Assembly (NCBI GenBank): GCA_032358255.1
Contig: JAULBX010031260.1
Span: forward strand, 62,001-126,000
Source: Heterotrichella gracilis
Taxonomy: Eukaryota; Sar; Xanthophyceae; Tribonematales; Xanthonemataceae
Length of the DNA: 64,000 nt
Direction: 5' to 3'
Shown here: piece after piece, positions 1,714-62,731 of the stretch
Layout: the number at the start of each line of letters is the position of its first letter
How positions within the stretch are numbered: position 1 is the stretch's first letter
Position numbers and translations under genes: made by a program
Notes under the pieces: generated by a model
What the model was told of the DNA's origin: nothing
The model's input: only the letters and a program-made list of their open reading frames with translations
Databases searched by the model: none

Positions 1714-4700
1714 ATGTCGACTCTCACCTCCGGCACAGCCTCCCCTAGCGGCCTGGGCTTCAACCCTCAGCTGATGCAGGAGGATGACTCGCTGCTGCGG
1801 GATGTGTTCTTCAACATCATGCGCGACCACCATCCAGCTGTGGCAACCAAGATGGACGTGATCTTTGCGCTGGCGCAGGTGGGGACAGCGACTGTTGCCA
1901 TTTATTGGTACTGGGTCAAGGGAAGTGCAGGGAGATGGGTCACAAGCGTTTGAAGGTTCATGTACCCACTCGGGGCATTGGCGGGCTGGTCAGCAGCGAG
2001 CTCGGCGCCAATGTGCAGTCCCTTCAAGGGCTGCGCTAGAATCTTGAACCCTTTCACGGGTCATATGGTGGGATAGTGCACACTTGCTGAGGGCCTTGCC
2101 CCTATGCAAGTCTGGTCCGCCCCTGAAGCTGGGTCATACTTCAGCTGTTAAGGGTTTAGGGTGTTCAGAGCATTTCTCCTCCTCACTGAGCGCCGCCGTT
2201 GCCCCCCTTGCAGGCGTGGTGCACCTCCCAGGCTGATTCAGAGATTGAGGTGCTTAGGGTTTAGGGTTTCAAGAGGAATTCCCCACCCCTCATTGAGCCC
2301 CGCCATTTCCCCCCTTGCAGGCCTGGTGCACTTCCGAGGCTGAGTCAGACTTTGAGCTGCTGGAGAAGAGGCTCACTGACCTGCAGCCAGATGAGCAGAT
2401 CCTGGTAAGGGTTTCTTTTAGGGTTTTTCTAGGGTGTTGAGGCCACCGCAAAACCCGAGGGTGTTGTGCTGCAAGGGTCTAGGGTTTTGCAGGAGGGTCT
2501 TGGGCCGCGCTGCAGGTCCTGGTTCATTTGTACCTGCCAGCTCTCCTCACCTCTCGGAAAGCCAGAGAAATTTCCGCTGGGAGAGAGGTATTGGGATCAA
2601 TTTCGGCCTTGCCAGTCCCCAATTGAACCTGTTACCACGCACGCATCACAATCAAACCCGCGACCCCTCCACCCACCCGATCCACCCCCCCCGCAGGTGG
2701 CCTCCGCCCTGTCCCAGGCGCTGAACCTGCACAACATCAGCGAGGAGATCATCAACGCTCGCTTTGAGAAGAGCGTGCGCCTGGGCGAGGTTGAGATCAG
2801 CACCAAGTCGACTAACAAGGCGCTCAAGGAGCTGGTGGCCTCGGGGCTGAGCGGGGAGAAGATCTACGAGCACCTGTGCNNNNNNNNNNNNNNNNNNNNN
2901 NNNNNNNNNNNNNNNNNNNNNNNNNNNNNNNNNNNNNNNNNNNNNNNNNNNNNNNNNNNNNNNNNNNNNNNNNNNNNNNAAGCAGCAGGTGGAGCTGGTG
3001 TTCACAGCGCACCCGACGCAGGTAAGGGTTTTACGCGGTTTAGGGTTTCGGTGACATTCGTGAGGGGTGGAGCCAGGGGGATGATGCCCTTGTCTGCATT
3101 CTTGCTTCTGATTTTTCGGCATGACTTATGGGCCAGTGGGGAGAAGATCTATGAGCACGTGTGCAAGCAGCAGGTGGAGCTGGTGTTCACAGCGCACCCG
3201 ACGCAGGTAAGGGTTTTACGCGGTTTAGGGTTTCGGTGACAATCGTGAGGGGTGGAGCCAGGGGGATGATGCCCTTGTCTGCATTCTTGCTTCTGATTTT
3301 TTCGGCATGACTTATGGGCCGGTGGGGAGAAGATCTACGAGCATCTGTGCAAGCAGCAGGTGGAGCTGGTGTTCACCGCGCACCCGACGCAGGTGAGAGT
3401 TTTTTACAGGGTTTGTGATTTTGGTGGGATTCGCAAGGGGGTTGGAGGCAGTGGGAAACGCCCTTTGTCTGTATTTTTGCTTTTGAAATTTTGGGGTGGG
3501 TTATGGGCCCAGCGGCGAGAAGATCTACGAGCCCAAAACCCTATCGCAAACCCTACCTCCATGCGCAGACCTGTGGCGCTCGCTGCTCTCATACTATCAC
3601 CAAAATGCACAAATGCGACCCTCCACACACCCTAGCTTGAACCCTAAACCCTCCTGCGCAGGCCCTGCGGCGCTCGCTGCTCCAGAAGTACACTAAGGTG
3701 CGCAAGGCGCTTGAGCGGCTGCACAACACGCGGCTGACCCCCTACGAGAAGCAGGAGACCCTGGATGAGATCCGGGGGTACATCCAGGCGGCCTGGAGGA
3801 CAGATGAGATCCGCAGGCGCAAGCCCACGCCACAGGTGCGGGGGGCAAGGGGTATGGAGCAGGGTAGGGGAGGTACAAATTGGTGCATGAAGTTGCATGT
3901 AGTTGGGTGAGACCTGCACGCGCAAGGCAAAGCTGCACGTTGATGGTTGCATATAGTTTGGATGAGGTCAGGGGATACATTCCGGGTGGCGTGGAGGACA
4001 GGCGAGATCCGCAAGCCGACACCATTGATGCGGGGAGGAAGAGGGTTGCATGAGTCCGAGGCTTGATCTACCTGGGCCCCAACCATCTGCTGCGGCCTGC
4101 AACGCGCATCCCGTACCCCCTTTCCCCTCATCGGGGCATTTTGGGGGGTGCCATGCTGTGTGCGCGACCATGCCTGTATTGCCTGGGGCATGTGAATAGT
4201 CACCTCGCGATACTGTGTGCAGGATGAGGCCAAGGCTGGCCTCAGCTACTTTGACGAGACCATCTACTACGGCCTGCCCGTGTTCCTGCGCCGCATCGAC
4301 ACGGCGCTCAAGAACATCGGCCAACCCACCATCCCCCTGGACCACACCCTGTTCAAGTGAGGCGCAAACCCTAAACCCTGGGTCCTGAACGTAACCCCTG
4401 AGTCAGACATGTTGTGTTCGAACAGCCTCAGCTGCATTGACGGCGCTGCCTGGGGACATCAAGTAGTGCCCATCATCATGGATCGCCACCCCTACGTGAC
4501 GCCTGAAACCCTAATTCCGAACCCTAATGCGCCCTTCACTTTCCAAGTTTGGCTCCTGGATGAGCGGCGACCGCGAAGGCAACCCCTATGCGAGCGCAGA
4601 AAACCCTAGTGCCTGAACCCTATACTCTAACCCTAAACCCTAAAGCGCCCTTTTCAACCCCCAGGTTTGGCTCTTGGATGGGCGGCGACCGCGACGGCAA

Positions 4701-7700
4701 CCCCTATGTGACAGCCGAAACCACGCGCGAGGTGGTGCTCCTTGCGCGCCTTGCTGCCGCCAACCTGCACATCGCACAGGTGGACCAGCTGGTGCAGGAC
4801 CTGAGCATATGGAGGTGCACGCCGGAGGTCACGGTGCGTGGGGTGGTGGGGTGTGGCGGTGGCGGTGGGGTGTAGGTGGCTCTTAAATGGGTCAGATTGT
4901 CAGTGAGGGTGAGTGTGGTGGGGGATGTGGTGGTGGTGGTGGTGGTGGTGGTGGTGGTGCAGGACCAGAGCATCTGGAGTGCACGCTGGGGTTCACAGTG
5001 CGTGGGCAGTGGTGGGTGGTGACGGTGGTGGCTGTGGTGTGTAGGTATCGCTTGCATTGCACGGTGGACAGTGGGTGGGTGAGGGTTGGGGAGGTGGTGG
5101 TGGTGGTGGTGCAGGTTTTGAGCATATGAAGGTGCAAGCCGGAGGTCACGGTGCGTGGGGTGGTGGGGTAGAGTGGTGGTGGTGGTGGGGATGACCAGCT
5201 GGCAGGACCTGAGCATAAAGATTTCCATCATCGATGGTATAATCCACATTACAGCGGATTCTATTTCCGGGGGGGGGGGGGGGGGGTAATGAAATGCGTT
5301 GCATTACTTACCCACACACCCCCACCCCCCGCAGGAGTACGTTGAGAAGCTTCAGAGCAGGCAGGCGGCCGCCGCCGAGGGCAACAACAAGCACTACGAG
5401 GACTTCTCACGACTGGTGCCACACACCGAGCCATTCAGGGTCATCCTGTCAGACATCCGCGACAGGTTGCACTACACGCGGTGAGGGGTGTGGGGGGGCG
5501 CTGGGTAGGGTTTTGGGCCCTACCGCTAGGGTAATAGGGCGGTTGCGGTAAGGTGCACTGCAGGCGGCAAGGGTTTTGAGCACGTTTGGTAGGGTTTTGG
5601 GTCACATTTGGTAAGGGTTTGGAGCACATCTGACAGGCTTTGAAGCAGAGAACCCTGCTGCATGCATTCCCACTCCTGCAGCAACAGCACCCTCACACTC
5701 ATAGCCCGCCCTAAAAGCCCCACCCTCCCCCCACTCCTGCCCGACGCCCCACTAACCCCCTCACCCCCCCACCCCCGCAGCGACGTCATCCTTGACCTCA
5801 CCAAGCACACCACCCTGGCAGTGGACGAGGTGCTCAGCTCAGAGCCATTCGCATTCGCACGCACCTCGGAGCTGCTTGAGCCCCTGATGGTCATGTACAA
5901 CTCGCTGACCGCCACCAAGGATGAGTGGCTGGCCAATGGCAGGCTGGTGGACTTCATCCGCCAGGTGGGTGGTGGGGTCCTTAAAGAGGGTTGTAAGGCT
6001 CTGGTGGAAGTGTTAGCGTTTCAGGCTCTGGATTGGAGGGTTCGATGGTTTGGTAGGTTCAAGGCCCTACCAAGACTGAGCTGGGTGGTGCCAGCTGTGC
6101 AGAGGTCATCTGGCTGCACTGTTGAGGGGCATGTACATGTGCGGTGCATCCGCTCTAAATCATCTATTAGACCGGAATTTACTGGGGCTGGCCTAACCCA
6201 AATTGCCGCATTTTTGGTTTTTGCAACCCACAACCCCCGTTTTCCCTCCCCAGGTGACCACCTTTGGCCTGTCCCTGGTGAAGCTTGACATCCGCCAGGA
6301 GAGCACGCGCCACGAGGCTACCATGGACGCAATCACCACATACCTGGGGTTGGGCTCGTTCAAGTGAGTGCTCCTTGGGTGTTTTGGGGTAGTCTGGGTG
6401 TTTGTGCTCGCATTTGCAGGGGGCCACATTTTCAATGCAATCACACCCTACCTGGGGCTGGAGTCGGTCATTCAATTGGGTGGCGGTGTTTTGGTGTGCT
6501 TATTTGCACTTCAGTGGTTTGGCCTGGATTGTATAATACAGTGGTTTGGTCCCGTGGAACTGCAGAAATCCAGATTTAAAGGGTGGTTTGCTTGCAATTA
6601 CCGCCCTACTGGGACTGGGAGTGTCCTGCTTGTGCAAAAACCCTTCCTCGTGGTTTCCAGGGAGTGGGACGAAGCCAAGCGGTGCGAGTGGCTGGTGAAG
6701 GAGCTCAACGGCAAGCGCCCCCTGCTGCCGCCGCACCTGAAAATCAACACAGAGGTAGGCAGAGCAAAAACCCTAGCGCAAACCTTAGGTCAAGCCCTGA
6801 ACGGAAAGCGCCTGCTGCTGGCGCCAAACCCGGCAATCGACCCAGAGGCAAGCTGTGGCAAAACCCAGCACAAACCCTAGTGCAAACCCTAGTGCGTTCA
6901 ACGCAGAGGTAAGCTGAGCGCCTGCTGCTGCCGCTGCCCTTGGCCAAAAATGTAGGTGCAGGGGTGTGGCGGGCGGGGCTACCGCAACCGCAGCTACAGG
7001 CCTTATTGCAAACCCTAGGGCAAACCTTGAACCATAGAGCAAAGCCTAGTGCAAGCCCTCAAGCCTGCAGGACAGGGGCCCCTGCTTGGCCAGCACTTGC
7101 CAGCCATGCCCCCCAAAACCCCGCCCAACCCACCCCCAAACCCCCAAACCCCAAACACTTACAAGCGTCTCCCACACCCACACCACCCAAACTCACCTCA
7201 TCCGCATCCACCCCGCCTCCCGCAGGTTCGTGAGGTTCTGTCCACCTTCCGCATGCTGGGCCACCTGCCCTCTAAAGACCTTGGCGCACACATCATCGTA
7301 ATGGCGCGCACAGCCCTAAACCCTAAACCCAAACCCTACACCCAGAACCCGAATTCCAGTCAGCTCTCCCTCGCTCACATATGCCGACACACATCTTGAA
7401 CCCCGCAGGTTGACGAGGTGCTGTCCACCTTCCGCATGCTGGGACACCTGCCCTCTGAGGACCTAGGCGCATACATCATCTCAATGGCGCGACCCTGCCC
7501 CAAACCCTAAACCCTGCACCCAGCACCTTACATACAGTCAACTCTCCCTCACACACACGCAGATACCCCTTACCCTCCATCGCACACACAGGTTGACGAG
7601 GTGCTGTCCACCTTCCGCATGCTGGGCCACCTGCCCTCCGAAGACCTAGGCGCCTACATCATCTCAATGGCGCGCACAGCATCAGACGTGCTCACGGTGG

Positions 7701-10700
7701 TGCTGCTGCAGCGGGAGTGCGGGGTGGCCAACCCTCTTAGGGTTGCGCCCCTGTTTGAGACCCTGGATGACCTGGCAAATGCCGAGGACACCATGGAGCT
7801 GCTGTTCTCGAACGAGTGGTACCTCAAGCACATCAACGGGGTGCAGGTGGGTGGGGGGAGATATGTGCCAAGATGGAGGCTGCATTGACGTATCTGGTTG
7901 AATGGCGGTTGGGAAGGCAGGGTGTGATGGACCAAATTGCGGGAAGTGATTACACCTCAAAGAGTACGTGTTCGGCACCCAACTGCCCGCTTGGTCAAAC
8001 GCACCAGGGACAGAGACTCCATCTGCCCCATATTGCCAAGGCCTGTTGCGACATAATTGGCCTCATGATCGATGACTATGATGGTCCTGATCTGCCATTA
8101 ATTTGCCCATATGCCTGCATGATCTGCACGTTGATCGATCACTCCACTGCCCGCAGGAGTGCATGATCGGCTACTCCGACTCCGGCAAGGACGCGGGCCG
8201 GATGGCTGCCGCCTGGGGCCTGTTTGAGACCCAGGAGAAGCTTGTGCGGGTGGCTGAGAAGTATGGGGTGCACCTCACGCTGTTCCATGGCAGGGGGGGG
8301 ACCGTGGGCAGGGGGGGTGCGCCCGCACACCTGGCGGTGCTGAGTCAGCCCCCAGGCACCATCAAGGGGACCCTGCGGGTGACCATCCAGGTGGGTTCCC
8401 TGGTCTAGGGATTATAGTTTAGGGTTTCTGGTTAACCAGCCTCCCGGCACCATCAAGGGCACGCTGTGGGTGGCCATCCAGGTGGGTGCCCTGGATTATG
8501 GATTAGGGTATCTGGCTGAGGCGGTTGTGGCGGGTGGGGGGAGGGAGAGGGTGGAATGGGGTAAAGGGGTGTAGGGTGTGCACCGGGCGGTGATGAGTCA
8601 GCCTCCCATGACCATAATAAGCAGGCTGAGGGTGACCATTCAGGTGGGAAGGGGGTTCCCATCGGGGTTGTATGTGACATTGGGGTGGAGGAGGCGGTGG
8701 TGGTGGTGGTTGACAGAGAATTGCTTTGAACAATTTTACACATTGCTCCATGGCCTCGGGTTGCTGCTGTCAGTTTACACGTTGACGCATCCTCCGCTTA
8801 GGGTGTAAGGTCCTGAAGGAAGCATGCGTTGTCAGCTTCATAACCCTAGTCTCGGCTGATCCCGCGAAAACCCTACTTACCACTGACCTGGCAAAAATTC
8901 CAGCCCACACTGATCCGCAAATACCCTTCCCCAGGGCGAGGTGGTTGAGCACCAGTTTGGCGAGAAGGAGGCGTGCTTCAACACCCTGGACCTGTACACC
9001 TCGGCAGTGCTGCAGGCAACAATGGACCCACCAGGCATGCCAAAGCAGGTGGGTGGGGTATACCGTATATCACTATATTTTTAGTAATGTATACGAGGTG
9101 GGGGTGACTACGCATTGGAGCGAGCGTCGTGCCAATGATGGAAATATCCGAAATAGCATTCAACGTCCAGAATAATTTAGTCTGTGTATAACTTTGAACC
9201 TCTGAAGCAGCTCGCTCATCTCACTCACCAGCACCCGCGTCCCGCACACCCCGTCCATTTTTTACCACTGACATATGCACTTACCCCTTTGTCGCAAGTC
9301 ATGACGCGACATCAGGAGTGACATGAGCGCAGTCCCGTGCGACGCGCCAACAATGGAAATATCCAAGATTAATCTGTTTCTTGCTTGGATCTTTGAAGCA
9401 GCTCACTCATCGCACCTACCAACAACCACACGACCCGCACTCCCCGTCCGTTTTATCAACCACTCACAAGTGCATTACCCCCTCCACCAACCACTGACAA
9501 GCGCATGACCCCCTGCGCCCCCAGTCATGGCGGGACATCATGAGCGACATGAGCGCAGTGTCATGCGACGCATACCGCGCTGTGGTCAAGACCAACCCCA
9601 AGTTCATCGACTACTTCATGTCAGCCACGCCAGTCAACGAGCTGGTGAGCAGGCAGAACCCTACAAAGCCTTGGTAAAACCCTACGTAACCTGACAATGT
9701 TACATTGGTTTTAGGGTTTGTAAAGTTAGGGTGCTGCATGCAGGGTGATAGGGTGCAGGGCAATAGGGTACAGAGCGCGACACCTGGCTGGGCAGGAACT
9801 CGTGTTCATGCGACGCTGCACTTGCACGTTGTCTGCAGTGTGCGCACCAAAAGGGCGCCGGATTTTGCAGGTTTCGAGCATTTAAAGTGAGGCTTTGCAG
9901 GTTTGTGCTGGTTGTTGGGTTTTGCAGGGCCTCCCCTCATCCCCACTTGCTGATGGGCATTGTTGACACGGTGTTACTTTGGGTAACCCTACATACTTAA
10001 CCTCCCTTCTCCCTGGCATACGGCTGCATGAAAACGTCAAATAAATAAATTGTGGCCCCTTTGAATCCTATCACGCAGCAAAGGCCCCACGCCAAAACCC
10101 TGACATTCAATATACAAACCCACTCCACAGGGCCGCATGAACATCGGCTCCCGCCCCGCCAAGCGCCGCGCGCACGGGTCCATCGATACCCTGCGCGCCA
10201 TCCCCTGGATATTTGCGTGGACGCAGATCAGGCTCAACCTGCCCGTGTGGCTGGGCATGGGCGACGCCTTCCAGACCTCCATCGACAAGGGGCAGCTGGA
10301 GGTGCTCAAGGTGGGTGCAATTTAGTTTTTTTGGGGGGGGAGGGGGGTTGGGGGGACCTGGACAAGGGTTTTATGGTTGTGGCGGTGGACCTGGCCGAGT
10401 GGATGAGCATGTGCGACGCCTTCTAGACCTTGATCACAAGGATTTTCTGGTCCTGGGGCTGGACTCCGGCCCCTTGAACCTGGCTGTGGGCATGCGGATA
10501 CGCCTTCCAGCACTAGAGTGACATGGTTGGGGGTGGGTGGGTGAAGGTGTGAGATGGGTTTTGGTGCTGCAAGCAAAGAGTTTAGAATTGTAGGGTCTCG
10601 GTAGTAGCACACACACCCCTGACACCCCCTGGTGGCCACACACCCCTCGCAGGAGATGTACCGCGAGTGGCCCTTCTTCGGCGTCACCCTGGACACGAGT

Positions 10701-12425: not shown

Positions 12426-12430
12426 TGTAA
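12426..12430 (+). terminator. Candidate TGTAA poly(A) signal for PEPC
   Basis: TGTAA is the known chlorophyte polyadenylation motif. This copy lies about 560 nt after the PEPC stop. The short motif occurs by chance, so the assignment is tentative. The 3' flank from 11865 to 12700 otherwise holds no recognised gene. Confidence 0.35.
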
Positions 12431-12684: not shown

Positions 12685-12707
12685 CCGTTTGCCCTCCAGT
12701 GCGGGCG

Positions 12708-14470: not shown

Positions 14471-14473
14471 AGC

Positions 14474-16600: not shown

Positions 16601-16608
16601 CCATTCAA

Positions 16609-18592: not shown

Positions 18593-21500
18593 TCAAGCCG
18601 CCGAGTCCCTCGGTCCTCTACTGCTGACCGGTGCTGGCGTCACCGAGTCCTTCCCTTCTCTCCCCTGTCCCTCAGATGGGCCCTGCCCCTCGGGCCCCCC
18701 CTCCGCCTGCCTCACCACTCGCATGAACACCTCCTCAAGCGGGGTCAGGCGCAGCTGGAGGTCAGTCAGCCCCAGGCTGTGGCACAGGCCCTGCGGAAAT
18801 TCACATATTGTGAAACAAACGAAATAAAAAAAGGACATTGGATCACAGCAGAAAATCTAATGAGGTGTAAAACCTATGTAATTTGTAACCATGCAATTTA
18901 AGCACAACAGAACAAAGCCATGCGCATCCATACTGGCACATGTGTTGTTGAACCTGGCATTACAGACGGCCCAATATTACACTACTTACTACTTTTACCT
19001 ACAACCTTATTTTGTTACTGCTCCTCCTGTCCCCTACCTTGAGTTCCCTGAAAAATGCGCCTAGCCTGTCGTCACACGCACCAGGTGCTGCAAAGTGCAG
19101 GTACTTGGCGCTCTTCTCGGCCACGTGCGCACCCAGGCGCTCCGCAAACAGGGCACGCACAGCGGGGGCACAATCCTGCGGTGCACGCAATGGTTTAAAT
19201 AAATACAAAATCATAAGAGTCCATTGTTATGCAATTCCAAGGTTTCATGGAGTTGGGCATCAATTGTGGGAGGGACAGGTATGTGTTTAGCACGATGGCA
19301 CAACCCTTTGACTCTTAACCTCCAAATATTTTCCCTAAGGGAATGGCGCCCCACCTGACTGGCCAGCCCCACACTGATTTGGCACCCCGACCCAAGCTCA
19401 GCCCATAAACCCTAATCATAAACCCTAACCCCAGACCCTAAGGGGAGCGGCGCCCCACCTGACTGGCCAGCCCCACGCTGATCCGGTACCCCGACCCAAA
19501 CTTGGTCTTGAGGTGCAGCGGTGTGCCCAGGCAAGCCAGCCTGCCCCTGGCAATGATTGCGATGCGGTCCCCCAGTATGTCTGCCTCCTCCATGGAGTGG
19601 GTGGTCAGCACGATGGCGCGGCTGCGCTTGCAGCGGTCGATGAGGTCCCACAGGTGGCGCCGGGACACGGGGTCCATGCCTGCAGTGAAGGGTTTCCAGG
19701 CGTATACAGGTTTGCATTTAGAGTTTTCAACGTGTTTGCCAGGTTTGCAGTACTCGACGAAGTCCCGCAGGTGGCGCCGGGACACGGGGTCCATGCCTGA
19801 AAGCACGGATTTCCTTTGGGTTTCCAATCTGGCTGCCCAGTTTGGATGTCATGAAAGCAAGGGTGGGTTTAATGTGAGGGTTCCATGCTCAGGAGGTCCA
19901 TGCCTGAAAGCAAAAAGTCTAGGTCTTGGGATTTAAAGTAGGGGAGTGGGCGGGGGAGTGGGTGAGGAAAGGCTTAGGGAAATGCGGTGGTAGGGCTTAG
20001 TCTAGGGTTTACAAATGGCCCTGGGTTGGTCCTGCCGCAGCCGTGGCCCATCCACTAAACGCACCTGTTGTTGGTTCATCCAGGTAGACCACCTTGGGAT
20101 CCCCAATGAGCGCCACAGCCACTGACAGCCTGCGCCTCATGCCCCCGCTGTATGCGCCCGCGTATCGCGCCCCCGCCTCGGTCAGCTTGACCTCCTCTAG
20201 CAGGCGCACAGCCTCAGAGGAACAGGAGCGCCAGGGGAGGCCTGGAAGAAATCAATAGAGAGTAATTTAAAATTGAAATCATCTTCGACCGATTGGCGTA
20301 CGAGCCTTGGAGGAGCAGCAGTGCCATGGAGGCCTGCAGAGAAAAAAACTTATATTGCATTTATTTAACAAATTAATTCAATCATAAACAAATGTATCGA
20401 CTTTTCGCCTCGTTTCAAGTACAGGGTCATCGATTGAGTAAGTACGGGCCAGCTTCATGGAAACAAAATCATTGCACAGCCTGGTATCAGATTCATGGGG
20501 GAAAAGGCAAAACAATACAAAAACAAATCATTACGCTGCACTTCAACCACCTTTTGCTCCTTCCATAATCCCCACCTCGTATGTGCGCAAACAGCTCCAG
20601 GTGCTCCTTGCCCGTCAGCCCATCCCACAGCACATCAAACTGCGGGCACACCCCCATGGCGGCCCGGATGCGGTCCATGCCCCCCGCGCTGCCTATGCTG
20701 TGACCGTGCACCAGCGCATCGCCCCCACTGGCCGGCAGCACCCCCGTGAGGATGTTGATGGAGGTGGTCTTGCCCGCACCATTGGGGCCAAGCAGGCAGA
20801 AGCACTCGCCTGTGAGGAAACATATGAGGTTTCTGTTTATCAAAATATCGTAACATTATAATAATTTTTGCTTTTTTATTCTGAGTTTGTGTGATTATCA
20901 ACCAGCTCTCACATGATATTGGGTCAAGCTTCTGCTGCCAATTGATCCAAATTTTCAATCAAACTTTTAACCAACGCGCTGCATAGCACGTACCCTGCCG
21001 CACACCCAGCCAGTTTCCATGCACTGCAGTGAATGCCTCCCCGCAGCGCCCCACACCGCTCCGGTACACCTTGCGCAGCCCAAACATCTCTATGGCGTAC
21101 TCAGAATCTGGTACCCCATGTGCGTTTTTCACACCATCTCCTGCAGACACAGTCCCGGATTCAGGGTTTGAGTTGGGTAGCGGATGGCGGGTGGTGGGTT
21201 GTGGGAGGTGTGTGGATGTGGATGCCGGTGGCAGGTAGGGAAAAGAGGACGGGGTGGCATCCTCTTGAACCACATGAAGAGGTAAATTTTCACCGTTTGG
21301 TGTAGACATGCAACAACAGGTCCAAAACAGCCGCTATTGCGTAGTATTAATCATACTGGATCATAGAGGGCTGCCCCACCTATGGTGACATCGTCATCTC
21401 CGCTCCCTGCTTCATCCACTGCCTTGCCAGTGGCATCCTGGCTGACCTCCCCAGCCCCTGCCTCCGCTCCCTTCCTCCCTTTCCTCCCCCTGCTTGCCGC

Positions 21501-45847: not shown

Positions 45848-48836
45848 ATGCAGCCCAATTCGCTCCTTCAATCGCTGCTGCTAGCTCTTCTGGCGTTGTT
45901 GAAGGTGAGTGTGCCACGCCCATCCCCTGCACCCTTTTTGTGCCCCAATGCGGTGCATGTGCCAGCCAACCCGACCCAACTTGATGGCCATGGGTTGCTC
46001 AATGCTCCTAGCGTCATCCTTGTGCTTGATAGTCGAATTATTGCTGGCTTTCTCGGTCGAAGGTGCCCCATGTCTTGGCCCGTGCTGTCGCTCACACATC
46101 TGGGAGCTATATGGGAGCACCTATTAGCTCCACCTCGCAACTCGTGGGATGCCCAATGGGAGGAGTGCACACGACTCCTGAAACCCTGCAAACCCTATGC
46201 AGCAGGGGCAGTGTTGTATCCGTTCCAGGTTTGGTGTAGGTTTGTGCAGGTTGGCCAAGCAGCTAGTGGCGGTTTAGGGTTAGGGTTCAGGGTTTAGGGT
46301 TTAGGGTTTAGGGCACTGTTGTGACCCTAGTGCCTGTGCAGGTGGGTCAAGCAGCCAGTGGCGGTGGCATCGGCGGCCCTGGCTCCGGGATCCCCATCTT
46401 CCCCAACATCCCCATCATTCTCATCCCCCTGGGCAAGCGCCCACCCTCCCCGCCCCCTCGCCCTCCCCCTGCACCTGTTGCCGGCTACTACCCCTTGGCA
46501 AACTGCAAAGCCATAGACACGGGCACTGGGGTGCCCTCCTTCAACATGCACTGGGAGGTGGGTGTGGGTGTATACATATTTGGTGTCACCAGCGTTGGGT
46601 GCACCATATATGACATGCAGCTCGTCACTGCTAGATGTAGACCACGCTGCTGCAAACCCTTCACTCGAACCTAAACCAAGTCACTGCTAGTCATAGACTA
46701 CCCTGTTACTGCAATAACGTGACCGCCATGGCCTCAGTGATACAGCCACCCTGCTTTGCCAGGGATTGCTTGGTGCCAGTTATGCAACGGCATTTGCCAA
46801 TGCGGCTGTGATGCAGTGATGCGTGTAGCTACCTGCACCCACACAACTTGCCTTGACACTGACAGGATATGGATGTATTTTTTGAAGTTTTAGACTCCTT
46901 TTGCCAATGCAGGTGAACAACGGGCGCATCAACATCGGCATCGAAATCAAGGACAACCAGCGGGTGGGGGGGGTGTGGGACTATGATGGAAACCCCGACC
47001 AGACATGGGTAAGCCTGGGATTCTCAGGCAACTTCAAGGGCCAAATGTATCCCAGGGCCGCCGGGAGCAGGGCGGATGTGGTGATTGCGGGGAAATTTGG
47101 ACCCTGCTTCGCAAACGACTACACAATCAACACCATCCCATCAGGCATCCCCAACTGCAACGCCGCTGGGGTGAGTGATCGAAATACCCAGGTTCCCGCA
47201 TCCCAGAAGAATGGTAGAATCTGTTATTTGCCCTTGTAGATTTGCCAAGTCAATTCTGTTGTCTTGCAGATGTGCACATGGGAGTAAGGCAGTGCACGAG
47301 GTTGCAGCATGTACACCATAACCCCACCACACCCTAAACTGGGCGCAGGGCTGTGAACGGCAACGCCGCCTCTTGCGCACATCTTACTTGAATTTCACCT
47401 GTTAAATATGTAATTATGTATTACCTGCAGGCTGGAGTGTGCCCCGATGTGGCGCCAGGAGTATCCGGCAGCAGCAACGTGCAGATGGAGCGCTGCTGGC
47501 AATCCGGCAAGGTGCTCTACGTGGAATTCTCCCGCCTGCTCAACACTGGGGACCCCCTGGATGTGGTGTGGCCCACCGCCCCCAGCACCGCCATATGGGC
47601 CATAGGCAAGGTCAAGACGCTCAATAGTGCCACTGATATGCAGCTGGATTTCCACACCGAGCGGGGCGGCGTGGGGGTGAGCTTTGGGGGGTCGCAGCGC
47701 ACCTGCACCACCTTCATTGCCCGACGTGAGTGTACCACCACCACTCCATAGTATAGATTGAATGTATGCATAGGAAAAAATACATGAGGTGGGCGGCTCG
47801 CAGCTCTCCAGGACCACCTTCGTTGCCCGGTGTGTGCATTTTATGACCGTCATTATGGGCCCCTATGCGCCCAGCTGTCACAGGCATGTGCGCACGGCAT
47901 GTACATCTATGAAGCGTCGTTGCATATATATAGTATGAGTATCATTGCATGTAGTGTTTTACACAAGGTTCACGCCATGAGTAGAGCGTGTGCTCTTCAT
48001 ATGCTGTCCCAATAAGGTAGCTGCCAAACGCACTACTGGCAAGTGGCACGGACACAACGTGCACTTATGTATGCTACCTGCGAGTACTCCTTGAAACATG
48101 TTTCTTGTGCCGCACCTGCCACTGGTTGTATCGAGAACTGAACAGCACCATTTCCCACGCTGCAGCGCCCAGCCCCCCACCACCATCCCCGCCTCCACCA
48201 CCCCCCTTGCCACCACCGCCACCACCCCTACCACCGCCGTCACCACCCCTGCCTCCTCCACCCTCGCCCCCACCACCACAGCCACCCTCACCGCAGCCAC
48301 CCTCACCCTCCCACCCACCCCCACCAACCAAGAAACCCCCTCCAAAGGTGGCCAGCCCCCCACCAGCAGCCAAGAAACCCCCACCCAAGCCAAAACCAGC
48401 GGCCAAATCACCACCACCCAAACCTGCCTCCCCAGCAACCAAAAAGCCACCACCCAAGGCAAAACCACCTCCCAAGGCCAAGCCATCACCCAGCAAAAAA
48501 CCACCACCACCCAGCAAGAAGTGCCCAATCAGCGGGCAGGCTCCAGACAGCAAGGGGCAGTGCGTGTGCTCCACCCAGGGAGCCAAGGTGCAGACAGGAA
48601 AAAACAGCGCCAAGAAAGAATGTGCATGCCAATTTGGTCAGGTAGTGAAGAAAGACAGCAAGGGCCACCAGGCATGTGAGTGCCCTGCCAAGGGCCAGGC
48701 GGTGGCCAAGGTGGGGGGCAAGCAGGTGTGTGCCTGCGCCATCCAGGGCCAGGTGGTTGTGAAGGGGCAGTGCCAGTGCAAGGCGGGCCAGGTGGTGAAG
48801 ACGGTCAAGGGAGTGAAGCAGTGCGCCAAGAAGTGA
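45848..48836 (+). CDS. Secreted DOMON / poly-proline / Cys-repeat protein, copy 1
   Basis: Exons: 45848-45904, 46342-46557, 46913-47170, 47431-47725, 48166-48836; 1497 nt, 498 aa, phases 0,0,0,1. Exon 1 is exactly a 19-residue signal-peptide start (MQPNSLLQSLLLALLALLK). Exons 3-4 form a DOMON-like beta-sandwich (IEIKDNQ, TWVSLGFSGNFKG, ADVVIAGKF, LLNTGDPLDVVW, STAIWAIGKV), a fold that binds haem or sugars. Exon 5 starts with a Ser/Pro-rich spacer typical of hydroxyproline-rich wall glycoproteins, then Lys/Pro repeats. It ends in about four Cys modules of ~20 residues (CVCSTQGAKV, CACQFGQVV, CECPAKGQAV, CACAIQGQVV, CQCKAGQVV). Predicted wall or matrix protein; the ligand is unknown. A paralogue follows 1.2 kb downstream. 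Confidence 0.9.
46240..46320 (+). repeat. Copy of DOMON-1 exon 2 start ending in TTTAGGG tract
   Basis: The acceptor and VGQAASGG coding start (true exon 46342) are repeated at 46248-46272. At the GGCGGT the sequence switches into TTTAGGG repeats (46271-46313), the longest such tract in the window. Confidence 0.9.
47785..47835 (+). repeat. Copy of DOMON-1 exon 4 end plus donor
   Basis: Repeats the GGSQRTCTTFIAR coding end in degraded form, with a GTGTGT donor, about 60 bp after the true end at 47725. Confidence 0.75.
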
Positions 48837-50015: not shown

Positions 50016-52918
50016 ATGCAGTCCGTCTTGCTCCTTCATACGCTGCTGCTGGCTATATCGGCTTCCTTCAAGGTGCGCGAGACACGCTGATACCCTTATG
50101 TACTCGGTGGTGCCTGTGACCTGTACAGTGTGCCTGCGACAGTGCGCCTGTGCCCAGTAGTTGATGGACCGGCCCACAAGTCTGCTGGTTCGCTGAAGAG
50201 CAAACCTGCTGAAAAGGTATCGCCGTGCATTACCCACACCCTTTCACCCCTCACCCCTTCAACCCATGCCCTGATGCAGGCACTTGCTCTTCCTGTCTCG
50301 TGACGGGCAAACACCAGCTAGGAAGCAACTCAAAATCCCTACCAAACCCTACCCACCAGGCCTGTGCGCGTTGCCTTCACCCACTGAGTGCCACAGGCAG
50401 GGTTCCCAATGGGTCCCCGTAATTTTCATCTCGTAGTCGAGGGTCCACCCCGATTAGGGGTTTAGGGCGCTATCTTGATTTCGCTGGCCTGTGTAGCTGG
50501 GCAAGCAGCGCTAGCACCTAACGCCGGTTTACGGTTAGGGTTTAGGGTTTTACTATTTAGGGTTTAGTCCGCTGACACGACCCTACTGGCCTGTGCAGGT
50601 GGGCCAAGCAGCCAGTGGCGGGATCCCCTTTGCCAACGTCCCCGGCAACCCCAACATCTTCGACCCCTTGGCTCCCCCTCCCCCTCCCCTCTTTGGCAAC
50701 ATCCCCACCACCCCCGTCCCCGTAAATTCACCTCCCCCCCATTATGCCAACGTCCCCAACACCCCTATCTTCGTTTTCCCTTCGGACCCACCTCCCCCAC
50801 CGCCCCTCGTGGCCGGCGACTACCCCCTGGCAAACTGCAAAGCCATCGAAACGGGCACTGGAGTGCCATCTTTCAACATGCACTGGCAGGTGGGTGCCAC
50901 ATGCATTATATGCGTTGAACCCTGTCGCCCTGGATATCTGCTGACCTCACCCACCCCTCTGGCACCATGCCTGATGGGGGGAAGTACAAGAAAGCACTAC
51001 AGTACTATGTTTATTAGTAACAATGCTATTTTTATTGTCATTATTATTACTATTATGCATTTGAAATTACCCTTTATCGTTATAAATTATCATAAAATAT
51101 GTGTTATATGTTTTACCCTTTATTACCACGAGTATCCCTGTAGTTCCTTACTGCTCACATGAAACATTTGTGCCAATGCTGTGCAGGTGAGCAAGGGGCG
51201 CATCAACATCGGCATCGAAATCAAGGACAACCAGCGACCCGGGGGGGGGGGGGGGGACGCTGACGGGGACCCAGACCAGACATGGGTGGGCCTGGGGTTC
51301 TCAAATGACTTCAAAGGCCAGATGTACCCTAGGTTCCGCAGCGGCCTGGCGGATGTGGCAATTGCGGGAAAATTTGCCAACGCCCATGGGTCGTGCTTTG
51401 CACTCGACTACACAATCAATGCCATCCCGAAGGGCACGCCCAACTGTGATGCCTCTGGGGTGAGTGAGTGTTTTGAGTTTATAAAGGTCTCATTATATCT
51501 CATGTACCATGCCAAATTCCACTTCCCATGTGTAAGCATGCAGTGTGGGAAATATCGTAATGGTAATAATAGTAAAAATGTTATGCTGCATCGATACAAT
51601 TCTCCATATACAGTTACTGGCAGTGCCATATTCCAGGGTGTATACTTGCATATTATGTCTCCCCACTAAATCTTCAATAGTCGTTTGATAATGTGCAGGT
51701 TGGAGTGTGCCCCGATTCCGCACCAGGGCTGTACGGCGAAAGCGACGTGCAACTGGAGCGCTGCTGGCAGCTTGGCAAGGTCGTCTACGTCGAGTATTTG
51801 CGCCCCCTTGACACCGGGGACCCCCTGGATGTGGTCTGGCCCACCACCACCAGCACCGCCATTTGGGCCATTGGCAAAGTCAGTTCCCTTAACAGCGCCA
51901 CCGATGTCCAGCTGGATCAGCACACCGATCAGGGCAGCGTGGGGGTGAACTTTGGGGGATCGGGGAGCTGCACCACCTTCATCCTACGGGGTAAGTATAC
52001 TGCAAAAGAATGCAACCAATAATCTACCTATTGGCAGTCATTCAAAGGAAATAATGGCAAACCCAGCGTCGACCACGTGCACCTATGCGCCTTAAATACA
52101 TGTACACTCCTGTAACGCCTGCGTGCGTGCACTGTAGTGGGCTGCAAAGTGCATGGTCTTTTTCATGCGCCGAGTAGGAAGCTGGTAGCTGGTGTGGCCT
52201 GCGCACACGTATGCTACCTGGCAAGATATTTCTCTACAGATCTGCATCTCAATATCATATAATGTTCCACATAATGTCCCAAATTGGAACGTTGCTGCAT
52301 GCATCTCTGCATATGTATGTATGTATGTAGACTAGAGTCTCCTGGCCAATGCTTACCGGTAATCACAGCTGACAAGACCCATTACCCACTGTTGCAGCAA
52401 CAGATCCTGGCGTGTTCCACATTGCTGACCACCCCCCATCACCACCCTCGCCGAGGCCACCACCACCCTCACCCCCCCCACCCCTACCAACCAAGAAGCC
52501 ACCACCAAAGTCACTCAAGTTGACCAGCCATCCCCCAGCAGCCAAGAAACCACCACCTCCCAAAGCCAAGCCATCACCACCTCCAAAGCCAAGCAGCAAA
52601 AATTGCAGTGTCGGCGGCCAGGCTCTAGACAGCAAGGGGCAGTGCGTGTGCTCCACCCAGGGAGCCAAGGTGCAGGAGGTGAAAAACAGCACCAAGAAAG
52701 AATGCGCCTGCCAGTTTGGTCAGGTTGTGAGGAAGGACAGCCAGGGCCACCAGGCATGTGAGTGCCCTGCCAAGGGCCAGGGGGTGGTCAAGGTTGGGGG
52801 TGAGGAGGTGTGTGCCTGCGCCATCCAGGGCCAGGTGGTGGTGAAGGGGCAGTGCCAGTGCAAGTCGGGCCAGGTGGTGAAGACAGTCAAGGGGGTGAAG
52901 CAGTGCGCCAAGAAGTGA
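50016..52918 (+). CDS. Secreted DOMON / poly-proline / Cys-repeat protein, copy 2
   Basis: Exons: 50016-50072, 50599-50889, 51187-51459, 51699-51990, 52398-52918; 1434 nt, 477 aa. Exon number, phases and the 57-nt signal-peptide exon (MQSVLLLHTLLLAISASFK) equal those of copy 1, so the pair arose by tandem duplication of the whole gene. Exon 2 has a longer Pro-rich insert before the domain (FVFPSDPPPPPPLVAG). The DOMON core is well kept (TWVGLGFSNDFKGQ, LADVAIAGKF, LDTGDPLDVVW, STAIWAIGKV). The C-terminal Cys modules are nearly identical to copy 1, and more conserved than the spacer. A run of 16 G in exon 3 encodes five Gly and stays in frame; its length could be a sequencing artefact. Confidence 0.9.
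50490..50575 (+). repeat. Decayed copy of DOMON-2 exon 2 start plus TTTAGGG tract
   Basis: A degraded acceptor/VGQAASGG segment (50492-50525) runs into TTTAGGG repeats (50527-50567). This is the same arrangement and position as in copy 1, so the event predates or was copied with the gene duplication. Confidence 0.8.
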
Positions 52919-53706: not shown

Positions 53707-56700
53707 CTAGAAGCCAGGGCACCGTGGATCGTGAGGCAGCAAGTGCAGCTGGTTGCCGGATGTGGTGTGCCAACGCTGGCACACTGCGCAGCGCTGCACG
53801 TCAAAGTCTTCGCAGGCGCACTCCCGGCACACCACCCGCGTCCTTGCGGGAGGCTCCAACATCCTCAAAAACTGCACAAACCCCACCAGCTCGCCACAAA
53901 ACGGCAGGTCAATCAGCTCTAGGCTCTGCACCCCACACAGCGCATCCAGGCCCTCAAAACCGCCCTCCCAGCTGCAGCCAGGCCCGATGGACAGGGATTG
54001 AAGCTGGGGGCAAGCCCTGTTGATGTGTTCCATGTGGCTGCTATCCACCTCCAAATTCACCAGGCTGAGATGAGTAAGATGCTCATACACCGCCTCCAGG
54101 GACGCATCAAACGGGCAGATGATGGGGGGGGCAATCTCTGAAATACGCCCAATCATATCTGTACTCTGGAGATCGAGGTGTCGCAGGGCGGTAAGCCCTG
54201 CCAGCGTGGGCATTGCTGACTCCCATGCGCCGCTGGTGGGGTTGGATCTGATGCGCTCCAAGTGGGGGCAGCTGGTGCACATGGCTATGAGCAGACCAGC
54301 GCTGTCCAAAAAGCACTCATTGTGGTTGGTGCCCACTATGTCAAGCTCTGTGAGGGCGGTGAGCCTGCAAAGGGAGGCGCACAGCTGGCTTCGGTGGATG
54401 TCGGCCATCCCTGCATCAGGGCCTGCACGCACAATAGAAGAAATAGGAATTTCATTTCTAGTGAAATAGGTGCGTAATTTAGTAGTATTGAAAAATAACC
54501 GCAACGAGGCAAGGTGCAAAGCATTCAGAAATACTAGTACCCTAAACCCTGCAACACGCAGTGAGCATGTGCACGCCACAGTGCCACCACCCTAAACCCT
54601 GTGGCCCACAGCGAGCAGGCTTTTGCGCACAGTGCGCCCATTCGCAGTCCAAGCAATACAAGCTACCATACACCATGCCGCCCCATTCCCTGGCTAACCC
54701 CCACAAGCTGCCATTTTCCAACCCACCAAAAAATCTCCACCTGTGGTCCGCCAGCTTGAGCACTTTGAGTTTTTTTAGCGCCGTGAGCGCCCCTCGGGCC
54801 ACCGCCATGTCCCCGTCATTCTCACGCAGCGCCCGCGTCAGGTCCAGGCTTGTCAGGCATGTGAGTTGGCCAATGGAGGCGACAGCTGCGGCACCCATCT
54901 GCACCAAGGGGCACCATCTACATCAGGGTTTAGGGTTTAGGGTTTAAAGGTTTTGCGGTTGCGGCTCCTTGGGGCACCCCACCAGCCCGACTGGTGGTGG
55001 AACTGTGCGACACTGCCGGACCAGGCTGACACCCATGCGCACGAGCATAGACCGCTTGGCACGCATGGTGAAGGAGCTGGCAGTGGGTGTGAGAGTGTGC
55101 ACAGATGTAACGCTTCCCAGCATTGCGTCATTGAGATGATTGGGCGAACTTCACATCCAGCCAGCGGACCGCCACGGTCGCACCACACAACTATCCATGG
55201 ACACACATGCAGGTGTACATATTGAGGCCCTTGGGACGGTGAGGAGAGACGCCCCGCACAGCACGCCATCCACGCTGCCTTTGTGAAAGCCAGCAGCCTT
55301 GTACACACACTGGTGATATGCAACCCACCGCAGACCAATTGCAAATGGTTCCCCAGCTGCGGTGCCCCATATTGTCACATCTGCAGGAAATGAAATGAAG
55401 AATACATGGAAAAATTGGTGGATAATGGATGTTTAAACGTAGTGTATGTACGCACCCCCTTGTGCAGGTAGTGCAGGTTGAGGTCCCTGAGGGCTGTGAG
55501 GCGAGACACCCCGCACAGCACGCCATCCACAGTTGCCTGCGCAGGGTGCACAGACAGCCCCGGCAGGTGCAGCGCCTGCAGCCCTGCGAGGGACCACACG
55601 CCATCCAGACCACCACGCACGTTGCGCAGTCCTTTCATTTTGAGGCAGGTCAGCTGGGTCAGGGCGCTCAGGCCAAGCAGCACTGCACGCAGCAAGGACA
55701 CCAGGTAAGGGGTCTGCAGTCAAAATAATAGTAGGGTGCCTGTAACAAAAGACATGTGCAGAAACACCTTCAGAACTGGTATACGCATTGCCCACAATAT
55801 GTTTGCCAAGCTAAACCCTAAGCCCTAGACCCTAACTTTACACACAAGCGCACCCTTGTCTGAAATGGTCAGGCCTAACTGTCTATAATCGGCTGTCCCC
55901 TCCACTTTCAGCCGCTGTAGCGCAGCAAACTTGGCCAGCGCGGGTGTGAGGGGCACCGGGTGTGTGAGACGCATGCTGAGGCGAGTCAGTGCAGTCAGGG
56001 AGCGAGCCAGGGCCCTCAAGCAAGGCGCAGTCAGCTCATCCCCGGCACCAGCCAAGTCCAGCGCCTTGAGCCGCCTGCGCACCACACAACCAGCTTTAGG
56101 GTTTACAAGCAAGGTTAAAGGTCCACACCCCACTATAAAGTACCACACCAACAACTCTAGTATGGTTGAGCGACCCTCAAGGTTGCCAGTTGGTGGGCAT
56201 ATCCAGCAGGCTATATATGCCCACCGGGCTTTGTTGCTGGAATCCGCGCACTACTCCCAAGTCCAGCGATGTGAGCCCCAACAGAAATAGGTTGTGTGGT
56301 GGCCAGCCAGTGACACATACAAAATTAGCCAGTTACTGACGGGGATATATGACAGGTGAGAAATATATCAACCGTGTGCCCACCTCAACTTGTGCAGCTC
56401 TTGGAGCTCGTTTGTCTCCACACCCCAGGGCGCAGCATCCTTCAGGTCCAGGCTCTGCAGCTGGGGGAAGGACTTCGCCAGCTCAGTGGCATGGAGCCTG
56501 TTGGGCACCAGGTGCGTGGTAGTCTGCACCGTGGCCCTGCGCCACCGGCTACACACCATGTGCATTCTCCCTGGGCGCAGGCGACCTGCCACCTGCAAAA
56601 CCAAGAAAGGGTAACCAAGCCCTCAACAGACTGCTGCTATATGCATGCAAGCACAGTGGCATTCTGGGAACGCTCGACAGGTCTACAGCACCCACAGATA

Positions 56701-60200: not shown

Positions 60201-62731
60201 AACAAAGATATACAACTAAAACCACAATGCACATATATTGCTTGCAGGGGACCAGCACACAGGTCCATCTGGTCCGCCCTCACTCGCCCAATGCTTCCTT
60301 GCCTACGGCTGGGATGTCCCGCTGGATGATGAGGTTCTGGGCCTTGCCGCCGCTTGCTTGCAGCTGCTGGCTAGCGCAGAGGACCCAGCTGTTGAGATGA
60401 CCGAGCGGGCAGCTGCGCAGCGACTCACGGGTGTCCTTGCCACGGTATGCGGAAGACAGGATTGCATGGTGTGGGGCCAATGGTGGTGGGATGCATGCCA
60501 CCTGTGGCATGCATTGAATTGGCATGACGTTCAAGCTTCCTTCATTTGCTGCACACAGTGGCCATAGCACACGTGTTCCCTGTAGATTCAATATCCATGT
60601 ACCATAAGCGCTTGTTTCTGCACACACACACACACTTGCATACCATAGCTTCTATCTCTTGTTGCGTCAGGGCATTGTCACGCACTCACACAACCCTAAA
60701 CCCCAAACCTTAAACCCTAATCCATATGATACAGGCCATGCAGAACGTGATGGCAGCAGCCAACAAGCCCAAGAGGCAAAGGAGCCCCAAAGGTGGCATG
60801 TCTCCCGACCCCATGTCCTCCCCTGACACCTCCCCTACCTCCCCTGCTGTACTGGGGACAGTGGGGTCCTCCCCTGGTGCGCCACCCTGTAAACCTAAAC
60901 CGTATACAACACCACTGATGCAAATTGACTGAATTGGATGAACATCCAAAATCAAAGATGCTCTCGTCTGAAAGAAATAAATGCGATGTGAAAGCAACAA
61001 CAGTGCAGCCACTGAGGGAAATTGTCATGAGATTAAATAGTTCATATGTGGACAAAATACCTAAGTAGGGCATGCTAGGCATATACTGTTTGACGCTCAC
61101 CATTGGTGCTCTTACAGGTGGCAGCAAAAAGAAAGGGAGCCCCGGCAAGCGGCGTGCCCCCCCAATCGCCATTAAGGACCAGACGTTGGAGTCCCTGGTG
61201 CTGCACTGCACAGGTGCACTGCGCTTGCTGGCCACAGTGGACGAGGGCAACGCGTTCCACATTGCCCACCACGCAGAGGCCATGGGCCACCTGGTGCAGC
61301 TGGCGGAGCGCTGCGCCCGGGAGAAGATCAGGTTCAATGCACAGTCAATACTAGGTACGGCATCTCACTGACAAAAATACACCTTATTTCAGTCAATACT
61401 AGGTACGGCATCCCGCTGACCAAGGTACACCTTACATAAGTCAAAGGTCCGACAAATAAACACTTTGTTGATACGAAAATAGTAGACAGGAGGAATGCAC
61501 TCTCTCTGACAACTCCTGATTCAGAGATCACCTGTTTAACAAACAGACTGGTATAAGTATTTATATGCATTTTCCTTGCTCTCATTGTCCAGCATGTGCC
61601 TGCAGAGAGCGTCTGCATGCTTAAAGAGAACCAGGAGGCGTTGTCCCAGCTGGATGCGCCTGTGCCCCCTGCCTACCTGCCGGTGTCCGCCATGGTGCAC
61701 ATGGAGCCCATGCTGCATGACACACTCAGGCGCCAGCATGGCCTCATGGCGCTGGAGCCGATTGGAACAGGCAAGGCCCGGGTTGATGCCATTGTTAATT
61801 ACATAATCATGGTCATTGACAGTGAAGTGCTCTCCCTGCCTCAGGGCACCTAAGCTTTGATAACATGATTGAACATTATTCATGTGTGCCGTGAATATAT
61901 AACAGGAGTTTTTGTTGCCTGGTTTCATGGTAGGGGAGGCAGGATGCAGAACCCCAGTACCTTTCTCATTGCTAAACGACGCGCATGTTCAAGGACAAGT
62001 TGTATAGGTAGGATATTTCCACTTTAAAATATGTTTGTTGCCTGCGCTGCAGAGCACCCAGCTAGCCGGCCTCAATCCGCCTGGCGCTCCGCCCGCGACC
62101 GCACAGCCAAGGCGCGCATTGGCACCAACGACACACAGCCATTGTCAAGCAACCCCAACTTAGGGCAGCTTCCAGGCCAGGTTTGCAACCACCCTAAACC
62201 CTGAACCCTAAAGATGGATTTTTGCACCCCAGCAGGAGCCAGCGGTCGACCCTAACCTCAAACCCTCAACCATGGTGCTGCCAAGCTTGCAGATATTCTA
62301 TACCCTAAATCCTAAGTATAATGCTGCTTGCTCCCAGCCGCTCTAAACCCTAAACAACCACCCTAAACCCTCGAAATCTGGCCTCATCCCTGCACTTGGT
62401 TCTGCTTGCTGCCCAGGTCCGCAGGCCTGGTTCCCAGACCCGCGGCAATATCACCACCACCACCACCACCACCACCACCAGCGACAGTGAGATGCTGGCC
62501 CGCATGTCCTCTCAAAAGGTGCAATTTGCATCCACCGAAGGGCTGGAAGGGTATGCTGCGGCTGACGGCGCAGTGGGAGCGGATGATGCACACTTGCCCA
62601 GCGTGATGCGCCAGATGTCAGTGGCAGCTGGTGCCGGTGGGGAGCAGGAGCCAATGGCTGGTGGTGGGGACCGCAGGCAGAGCCAATTTGCGCGGAATCC
62701 CAGGCCAAGCGTGCTGAGACAGCCACAGTGA
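57276..62731 (+). CDS. Armadillo-like repeat protein of unknown function
   Basis: Exons: 57276-57356, 57777-57948, 58037-58335, 58487-58576, 58868-59168, 59554-59682, 59908-60051, 60248-60444, 60735-60888, 61118-61354, 61606-61770, 62053-62180, 62417-62731; 2412 nt, 803 aa, all phases matching. Helical repeats of armadillo/HEAT character fill the first third (LWTYALGSPEQSQEVLASGA, LLNVLSSCDENRVQIARG, GVPIIINLLKDKLETICIPA) and recur near TGALRLLATVDEGNAFHIAH. The rest is Lys/Ser/Pro-rich and probably disordered, with a run of nine Thr from an (ACC)n microsatellite (62453-62479). The intron after 61770 starts with GC, a GC-AG intron. I do not recognise a specific family; a scaffold role is only a guess. 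Confidence 0.85.
61355..61440 (+). repeat. Copy of armadillo-like gene exon 10 end plus donor
   Basis: The exon-10 end and donor (CAGTCAATACTAGGTACGGC, true end 61354) recur near 61390-61410 with the following ~30 nt of intron. This is a short tandem duplication of about 48 bp. Confidence 0.85.
62185..62385. repeat. Cluster of CCCTAAA motifs in armadillo-like gene intron 12
   Basis: Several dispersed CCCTAAACCCT and CCCTAAATCCTAA motifs fill the last intron. No clear exon copy is visible among them. Confidence 0.7.

Follow-up and report, generated by a model that had tools for sequence, protein, structure and literature searches.

Why do introns of the alga Heterotrichella gracilis carry, next to their splice sites, partial copies of the adjoining exon together with telomere-type repeats? 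The question is raised by a 64,000-nucleotide stretch of its genome (contig C866:62001-126000, termed the window here), for which a sequence-only reading had described exon-edge copies that end in TTTAGGG or CCCTAAA repeats and had proposed recurrent break repair. The present analysis finds that exon edges are duplicated locally and in direct orientation and that telomeric runs are in excess between the two copies. These structures can with moderate confidence be regarded as scars of staggered breaks near exon-intron junctions, which would have been filled in and joined with filler, sometimes telomeric. Statistical support for the observation is strong and it can be taken as real, whereas the proposed mechanism is plausible only in its outline, its telomerase step being unproven.

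The window was analyzed together with two 100-kb blocks (C2:100001-200000 and C46:150001-250000) picked irrespective of the motif. This sample comprises 264 kb, about 0.4% of the genome of 68.5 Mb in 903 contigs. Genes were modeled by a self-trained hidden Markov gene finder, trained on the 264 kb and using sequence only. Its models comprise 404 exons, of median length 147 bp, and 360 introns, of median length 288 bp, and show a clear splice consensus.

Duplications were sought by self-BLAST as pairs no more than 1 kb apart, in comparison with locally shuffled sequence. The sample contains 98 direct pairs (median identity 81%) and 1 inverted pair, and the shuffles contain 0; the window alone contains 37 direct pairs, with 0 inverted and 0 in locally shuffled sequence. 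Copies are mostly 30-150 bp long, direct and local. By gene label, 46 pairs are donor-side, 34 acceptor-side, 4 intron-only, 5 exon-only and 9 intergenic; as the gene finder labels some copies as exons, some of the 80 exon-intron pairs may really be intron-only. In 64 of these 80 pairs the copy on the exon side extends to the junction or across it, and in the other 16 it ends 3-116 bp inside the exon. The earlier statement that copies always span a splice junction is thus valid for 64 pairs, but not for the 16 that stop inside the exon or for the 18 of 98 that are not exon-intron pairs. Among pairs of at least 88% identity, 13 are donor-side and 10 acceptor-side, with 1 each intron-only, exon-only and intergenic.

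Were duplications placed uniformly, 2.5 intron-only segments would be expected for each segment that crosses a junction, a figure that falls to 1.2 if copies in introns decay at twice the rate. The observed ratio of intron-only to exon-intron pairs is 4 to 80, or 4 to 64 when only junction-reaching pairs are taken, which is the fairest comparison because the model counts junction-crossing segments. Planted duplications were recovered equally in exons and introns, ruling out a detection artefact as the cause of the few intron-only duplications. Selection is expected not to remove events in intron interiors or intergenic DNA, yet events are rare there. In gapped pairs (n = 32; pairs below 80% identity or with a copy ending more than 30 bp inside the exon were excluded), each copy contains a median of 8.5 intron and 42 exon bases, the exon part being the longer in 28 of 32. 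The corresponding values in ungapped tandem pairs (n = 22) are 87.5 intron and 50.5 exon bases, with the exon part longer in only 5.

Differences between copies and exons (pairs at least 75% identical) occur at 81/683, 76/688 and 113/687 of the three codon positions, in addition to 72 indels; the copies therefore drift and are not kept as coding sequence. Introns that contain a duplication have a median length of 431 bp, compared with 308 bp for those that do not, and splice sites are present in many copies, so that the intron growth and decoy splice sites envisaged by the sequence-only reading are reasonable. On the exon side, no breakpoint motif is apparent by eye. Duplication density correlates with gene GC3 (rho 0.44, p = 0.007; 37 genes), and telomeric density shows no such correlation.

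The telomeric repeats are themselves concentrated at intron edges. The window has 24/25 occurrences of TTTAGGG/CCCTAAA, compared with 3-5 expected, and among octamers seen at least 30 times in the sample, the telomeric TTAGGGTT, AACCCTAA, AAACCCTA and TAGGGTTT are the most over-represented (18-22 fold). Telomeric runs, defined as telomere-register stretches of at least 8 bp, reach a density of 1.89/kb in the introns of the sample (213 runs in 113 kb), compared with 0.28/kb between genes (22 in 79 kb) and 0.11/kb in exons (8 in 72 kb). Heptamer densities per kb, with those expected from trinucleotide content, are 16.8 (1.56) in the 60-bp intron edges, 4.94 (0.84) in the intron middle, 1.29 (0.67) in intergenic sequence and 0.54 (0.22) in exons. 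Run density at the intron edge is 2.5 times that in the middle (95% interval 1.8-3.8, by resampling of 41 genes). Edge clustering is also seen in introns that have no detectable duplication (16.6 and 18.0 heptamers/kb in the two 20-bp bins nearest the edge, and 3.6 at distances above 120 bp). Runs within one intron have the same orientation in 156 cases and different orientations in 38.

Motif density is highest 10-30 bp past donors and 10-50 bp ahead of acceptors, and within 60 bp of acceptors G-type runs are depleted (8 G-type, 32 C-type), as might be expected if telomere-type motifs were splicing signals under selection near splice sites and the duplications were unrelated. The scarcity of G-type runs would be due to the pyrimidine tract needed at acceptors. 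Within 60 bp of donors, however, 29 G-type and 27 C-type runs occur, an equality which an RNA signal would not allow and which speaks for a process at the DNA level. Moreover, 208 of 315 introns of at least 80 bp contain no run of at least 8 bp, and runs are located between duplicated copies (see below). Splicing signals are thus an improbable explanation.

Several other causes of the edge effect were rejected. The GC content of interior telomeric sites is slightly higher (0.545 vs. 0.520, p = 0.002), too small a difference to be the cause. CpG is depleted to 0.48-0.57 in the sample, with TG/CA excess, equally in exons, introns and intergenic DNA; this suggests genome-wide CpG methylation, which does not discriminate as an exon-specific cause because the depletion is equal in all three compartments. 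Hairpin pairing of the two ends of an intron was likewise discarded (edge combinations CC 9, GC 5, GG 1).

Genome-wide, (TTTAGGG)3 has 406 forward and 428 reverse matches, which, among the matches listed, lie mostly thousands of bases inside contigs; perfect telomeric arrays lie within gene models at L029-L044. Arrays at or near contig ends (G000:C46:403873-403907 in a contig of 404050 bp, C70:7-76 and C140:4-73) are consistent with TTTAGGG being the true telomere repeat of the organism. A long array of about 270 bp is located at G000:C173:89224-89497, and the octamers GCATGCAT, ATGCATGC, CATGCATG and TGCATGCA are over-represented 3-5 fold in the sample.

Several lines of evidence tie the telomeric runs to the copies. 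Flanking direct repeats accompany 28 of 85 intronic telomeric clusters in the sample; the corresponding figures are 37 of 450 for control positions in introns and 0.35% for pairs of mismatched flanks. When arrays were chosen only by (TTTAGGG)3 or (TTTAGGG)4, flanking repeats of score at least 30 were found for 3 of 8 and 7 of 14 distinct arrays, respectively (10 of 22 when pooled). In introns of at least 150 bp, heptamers are present in 29 of 36 introns with a duplication vs. 93 of 198 without (p = 2e-4), at 11 of 18 vs. 44 of 216 donor edges (p = 4e-4) and at 9 of 21 vs. 39 of 213 acceptor edges (p = 0.019). A run lies within 10 bp of 19% of inner and 10% of outer copy boundaries, compared with 5.7% of random intron positions; the outcome by which the sequence-only reading would have been refuted, breakpoints no closer to the motifs than random, was thus not obtained.

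The position of runs relative to the copies is the most specific evidence. In the 57 non-redundant gapped loci, on which the gap, outer-flank and locus-level counts are based, 35 runs occur in 4944 intron bp between copies and 20 in 6386 bp of same-length flanks outside the copies (p = 0.004). For duplications of at least 85% identity, the counts are 22 runs in 2109 intron bp between copies and 6 in 2642 bp outside (10.4 vs. 2.3/kb, 4.6 times; p = 4e-4). A run is found in the gap at 11 of 26 loci of at least 85% identity and between the copies at 21 of the 57 gapped duplications, and young duplications have more intact runs in their gaps than old ones do (p = 0.017). This test, like the Fisher tests, treats runs as independent, and pairs from one array are not independent.

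The structures in the window are as follows (self-BLAST identities).
2204-2254, + strand: PEPC, copy of intron tail and exon head in the upstream intron; original at 2311-2361, exon 2321-2404 (2099-2254 vs. 2204-2361, 75%).
2254-2269, + strand: telomeric run in G orientation, perfect over 16 bp, beginning at the end of this exon copy; copies lie 0 and 2 bp from its ends.
2980-3532, + strand: PEPC, exon end, donor and intron start present three times in tandem with a period of about 185 bp (2980-3342 vs. 3165-3532, 88%), with runs 3037-3048 and 3222-3233.
4520-4644, + strand: PEPC, copy of intron tail and exon head (exon 4665-4845), then a CCCTAAA run at 4629-4644 (4520-4602 vs. 4636-4720, 82%); the tract stands at the start of both copies.
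7219-7330, + strand: PEPC, first copy (7219-7314) of an exon edge (7589-7680; true exon 7592-7846) and run 7314-7330 (7223-7314 vs. 7589-7680, 88%).
7402-7515, + strand: PEPC, second copy (7402-7491) of the same exon edge and run 7502-7515 (7219-7491 vs. 7402-7674, 81%).
8346-8515, + strand: PEPC, tandem copy of exon end and donor with a gap of just 5 bp (8346-8431 vs. 8437-8515, 80%) and run 8417-8427 inside the unit.
19333-19502, - strand: ABCA, exon tail and donor duplicated about a 37-bp insert (88%); the right copy is the true exon edge, and runs (19406-19428) lie only between the copies.
19628-19799, - strand: ABCA, exon head, from 3 nt before the junction, copied into the upstream intron (89%) with a non-telomeric insert of 62 bp.
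40948-41194, + strand: SEC23-like gene, exon piece of 43 bp whose end is 116 bp short of the donor, present again in the following intron (88%); the intron copy lies 10 bp after telomeric runs 41114-41141.
43093-43250, + strand: SEC23-like gene, exon tail and 17 nt of intron duplicated about a 40-bp non-telomeric insert (90%).
46243-46365, + strand: DOMON1, acceptor and exon head duplicated (46243-46273 and 46335-46365, 90%), with a telomeric array between the copies at 46271-46313 (runs 46271-46281 and 46289-46313).
50487-50625, + strand: DOMON2, the same array (runs 50535-50567) and a decayed exon-head copy at the homologous junction, as aligned to DOMON1.
55208-55538, - strand: LRR-like gene, exon stretch copied in an intron (83%), with a 182-bp gap that has no telomeric run.

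The four best cases of the sequence-only reading are borne out by the copies and runs at 2204-2269, 4520-4720, 7219-7680 and 46243-46365. Its extension to most intron-containing genes is more limited: among the nine window gene models with at least 600 intron bp, six have a detectable copy and eight have telomeric heptamers, but only five have both. RRP36 has copies and no telomeric heptamer, and the lipase, DOMON2 and armadillo-like genes have heptamers and no copy at the threshold used; alignment to DOMON1 nevertheless reveals the decayed copy in DOMON2. Pieces of the window models for PEPC, RRP36, the ABC transporter, the class 3 lipase and Sec23 have Pfam support; DOMON2 scores below the curated cut-off and the LRR-like protein matched no Pfam family, in a test of these proteins in which the PEPC and Sec23 query pieces were each shortened by a stretch. 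PEPC exons were located along the window by genome search, and a second PEPC gene on another contig (G000:C244:205565-214359) is usable for comparing intron copies between paralogues. An assembly gap of 100 N (2880-2979) lies within a PEPC exon just ahead of the tandem units at 2980-3532, and the number of these units is therefore uncertain. The array and copy common to DOMON1 and DOMON2, with mutations of its own in the paralogue, suggest that the event is older than the gene duplication and make an assembly error unlikely.

In the reading favored here, a staggered break would occur close to an exon-intron junction, and fill-in of the two nicked strands, possibly by CST-Pol alpha, would duplicate the stretch between the nicks, about 12-100 bp that mostly consists of the exon edge and a few intron bases. 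The ends would then be joined with filler, which includes telomere-type repeats in 11 of 26 young cases, and the outcome would be edge copy, telomeric insert and edge copy. Events that spare one intact exon edge and splice site could survive, the extra copy joining a longer intron and decaying, and the direct repeats might later amplify into tandem arrays of telomeric run, splice site and exon edge, of which L057, L059, L060 and L067 would be examples. Direct orientation, local position, variable length and junction filler are as staggered-break fill-in predicts, and since the CST-Pol alpha complex also serves telomeres, a telomeric insert is plausible. The repeats would derive from telomerase or from captured telomeric DNA, which are equally possible sources.

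Several results weigh against break repair with telomeric filler. At the locus level, runs are in the gap only in 13 cases, in the outer flanks only in 6, in both in 8 and in neither in 30, a non-significant difference (p = 0.17), and 30 of the 57 gapped duplications thus have no telomeric run in the gap or the outer flanks examined. Long perfect arrays near donors at L030, L040 and L041 have no flanking repeat of score 30. The orientation expected from telomerase extension, with G-type runs abutting the left copy and C-type the right, is found in 21 cases, with 17 opposed and 5 ties. The short microhomology at junctions that had been noted earlier is weak, amounting on the left side to 1.36 of 4 matches vs. 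1.0 by chance (n = 11); the right-side value of 2.13 (n = 15) includes tandem units sharing an array. Eight of nine extracted non-telomeric inserts (591-nt query) match only themselves genome-wide, which leaves filler capture unsupported for those eight. Queries with three own-genome regions, of eight prepared, returned only paralogues and no allelic second copy; the ABCA paralogue at L048 has a different exon end and is uninformative on the empty site. In addition, for many of the telomeric runs close to splice sites no duplication could be detected. The correlation of telomeric with duplication density between genes is weak (rho 0.27, p = 0.11; 37 genes). With respect to the earlier proposal of break repair, a telomeric insert with a short local duplication fits best, given the 10.4 vs. 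2.3 runs/kb, but neither the orientation tally nor the weak microhomology demonstrates that telomerase adds repeats at the break.

The reverse causal order appears distinctly less probable. Telomeric tracts could have pre-existed at intron edges and served as microhomology for replication slippage or unequal exchange, which would copy tract, edge and exon part in tandem, the tract causing the duplication. This would suit the edge clustering in introns without detectable duplication and the 156 to 38 agreement in orientation within introns. It would also suit the tract heading both copies at 4520-4720 of the window, and L057, L059, L060 and L067, in which array, acceptor and exon head recur in tandem as two to four units; most of these units carry the tract and some are decayed. 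However, the runs of young pairs lie between the copies and not outside, and in several loci the array is at the junction alone: in L066, a fresh case, a perfect array of 31 bp at an acceptor has a perfect 28-bp copy on either side; in L055, also fresh, an array of 25 bp at a donor is flanked by perfect copies of 12 bp; and an array at the junction alone is found at window 19333 and at C2-block positions 89606 and 81168 as well. The scarcity of intron-only duplications is also left unaccounted for by pre-existing tracts.

The separate ingredients of break repair with telomeric filler have all been described before. Among the papers listed by a literature search that covered few subscription journals, however, none placed telomeric repeats preferentially at exon edges or linked them to the lengthening of introns. 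In mammals, short interstitial telomeric sequences have been inserted at double-strand breaks; deletions are the most frequent change there, and a duplication accompanies 6 of 130 insertions in rodents and 4 of 25 in primates (Nergadze et al., 2007; PMC2246262). As in mammals, the arrays here are short, perfect and internal, with exact telomeric units, older ones are more mutated and some have target duplications. Unlike the mammalian cases, 28 of 85 clusters have flanking direct repeats, as found by another detection method, and sites hug exon edges. Fill-in of 3' overhangs by CST-Pol alpha-primase produces tandem duplications of less than 100 bp in mouse and human cells (PMC8355091), resembling the direct duplications of tens of bp at putative breaks here and likewise involving a telomere complex; a telomeric insert is absent from the available part of that description, and a role of the enzyme here is putative.

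Plant telo boxes are single telomere-type units (AAACCCTA) within genes, for which an origin by non-processive telomerase at free 3' ends has been proposed; in Arabidopsis and rice they are enriched in 5' untranslated regions and not in introns (Gaspin et al., 2010; PMC3022908). By contrast, the repeats here are largely intronic, near splice sites and linked to duplications, and intergenic heptamers are no denser within 300 bp of a predicted gene (1.33/kb) than beyond (1.30/kb; 16.8/kb at intron edges), in models that have no untranslated regions.

Introners are element families, found in green algae among others, some of which have 3-9 bp target duplications (Gozashti et al., 2022; PMC9860276). 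The very many short intron insertions in genes and their flanking direct repeats might recall such mobile elements, and the draft assembly with its N gap might suggest an artefact. Unlike introners, however, the inserts have no common element sequence, being alike (by eye) only in the telomeric repeat, with eight non-telomeric inserts lacking any other match, and the duplications vary from 12 to about 100 bp. The divergence of the copies and the same structure with own mutations in the DOMON paralogue are further points against either cause, and an introner-type element or assembly artefact is very unlikely.

Intron gain by tandem genomic duplication has been reported for the potato RdRp gene (PMC4974935). 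Local duplication tied to splice sites is common to that case and the present ones; unlike it, the duplications here mostly lengthen existing introns and only L043 resembles gain. At L043, the exon tail matches the intron tail and the intron head matches the next exon head in register at CAG|GT, with a perfect array between them, so that this locus looks like a candidate new intron. Intron birth would occur if an array were inserted into an exon with a duplication holding AG|GT, which would give both splice sites. Consistent with this, the pattern AGGT-N-array-N-GCAGG occurs at 44 places genome-wide and its reversed control at 0. Among the 20 of 44 pattern loci that were scored, the flank score is at least 36 in 13, and six (L051, L053, L055, L061, L062 and L066) have, like L043, in-register scores reached by practically none of 5000 mismatched pairings. 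The pattern by itself selects junction-like ends, however, and the six loci are read by eye as edge copies in existing introns. In 313 unselected introns, an in-register score of at least 9 for copies of both flanking exons is reached by 3 vs. 0.9 expected, and a score of at least 10 by none; telomere-born introns were accordingly rejected as a general rule, and as an account of these structures intron birth has little likelihood.

Intron lengthening is usually ascribed to transposons, but in this alga telomeric octamers are the most over-represented and lie where introns and exons meet. If break repair is true, its genome contains numerous scars that can be dated and in which repair with telomeric inserts can be studied, and the question becomes why breaks or their repair concentrate at exon edges; decoy splice sites and longer introns could then arise directly, with no mobile element involved. 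A bolder and rather doubtful proposal is that exon edges are recurrent break sites healed by telomerase and CST-Pol alpha fill-in, telomere maintenance being a main engine of intron growth that would furnish introns with new sequence, extra splice sites and defunct exon copies and would now and then give rise to a new intron such as L043. At L031 (G000:C21 near 126337), an array of tiny exon-like units (CTTCATCAAG) has a donor, an acceptor and telomeric runs, and these units are possible alternative micro-exons.

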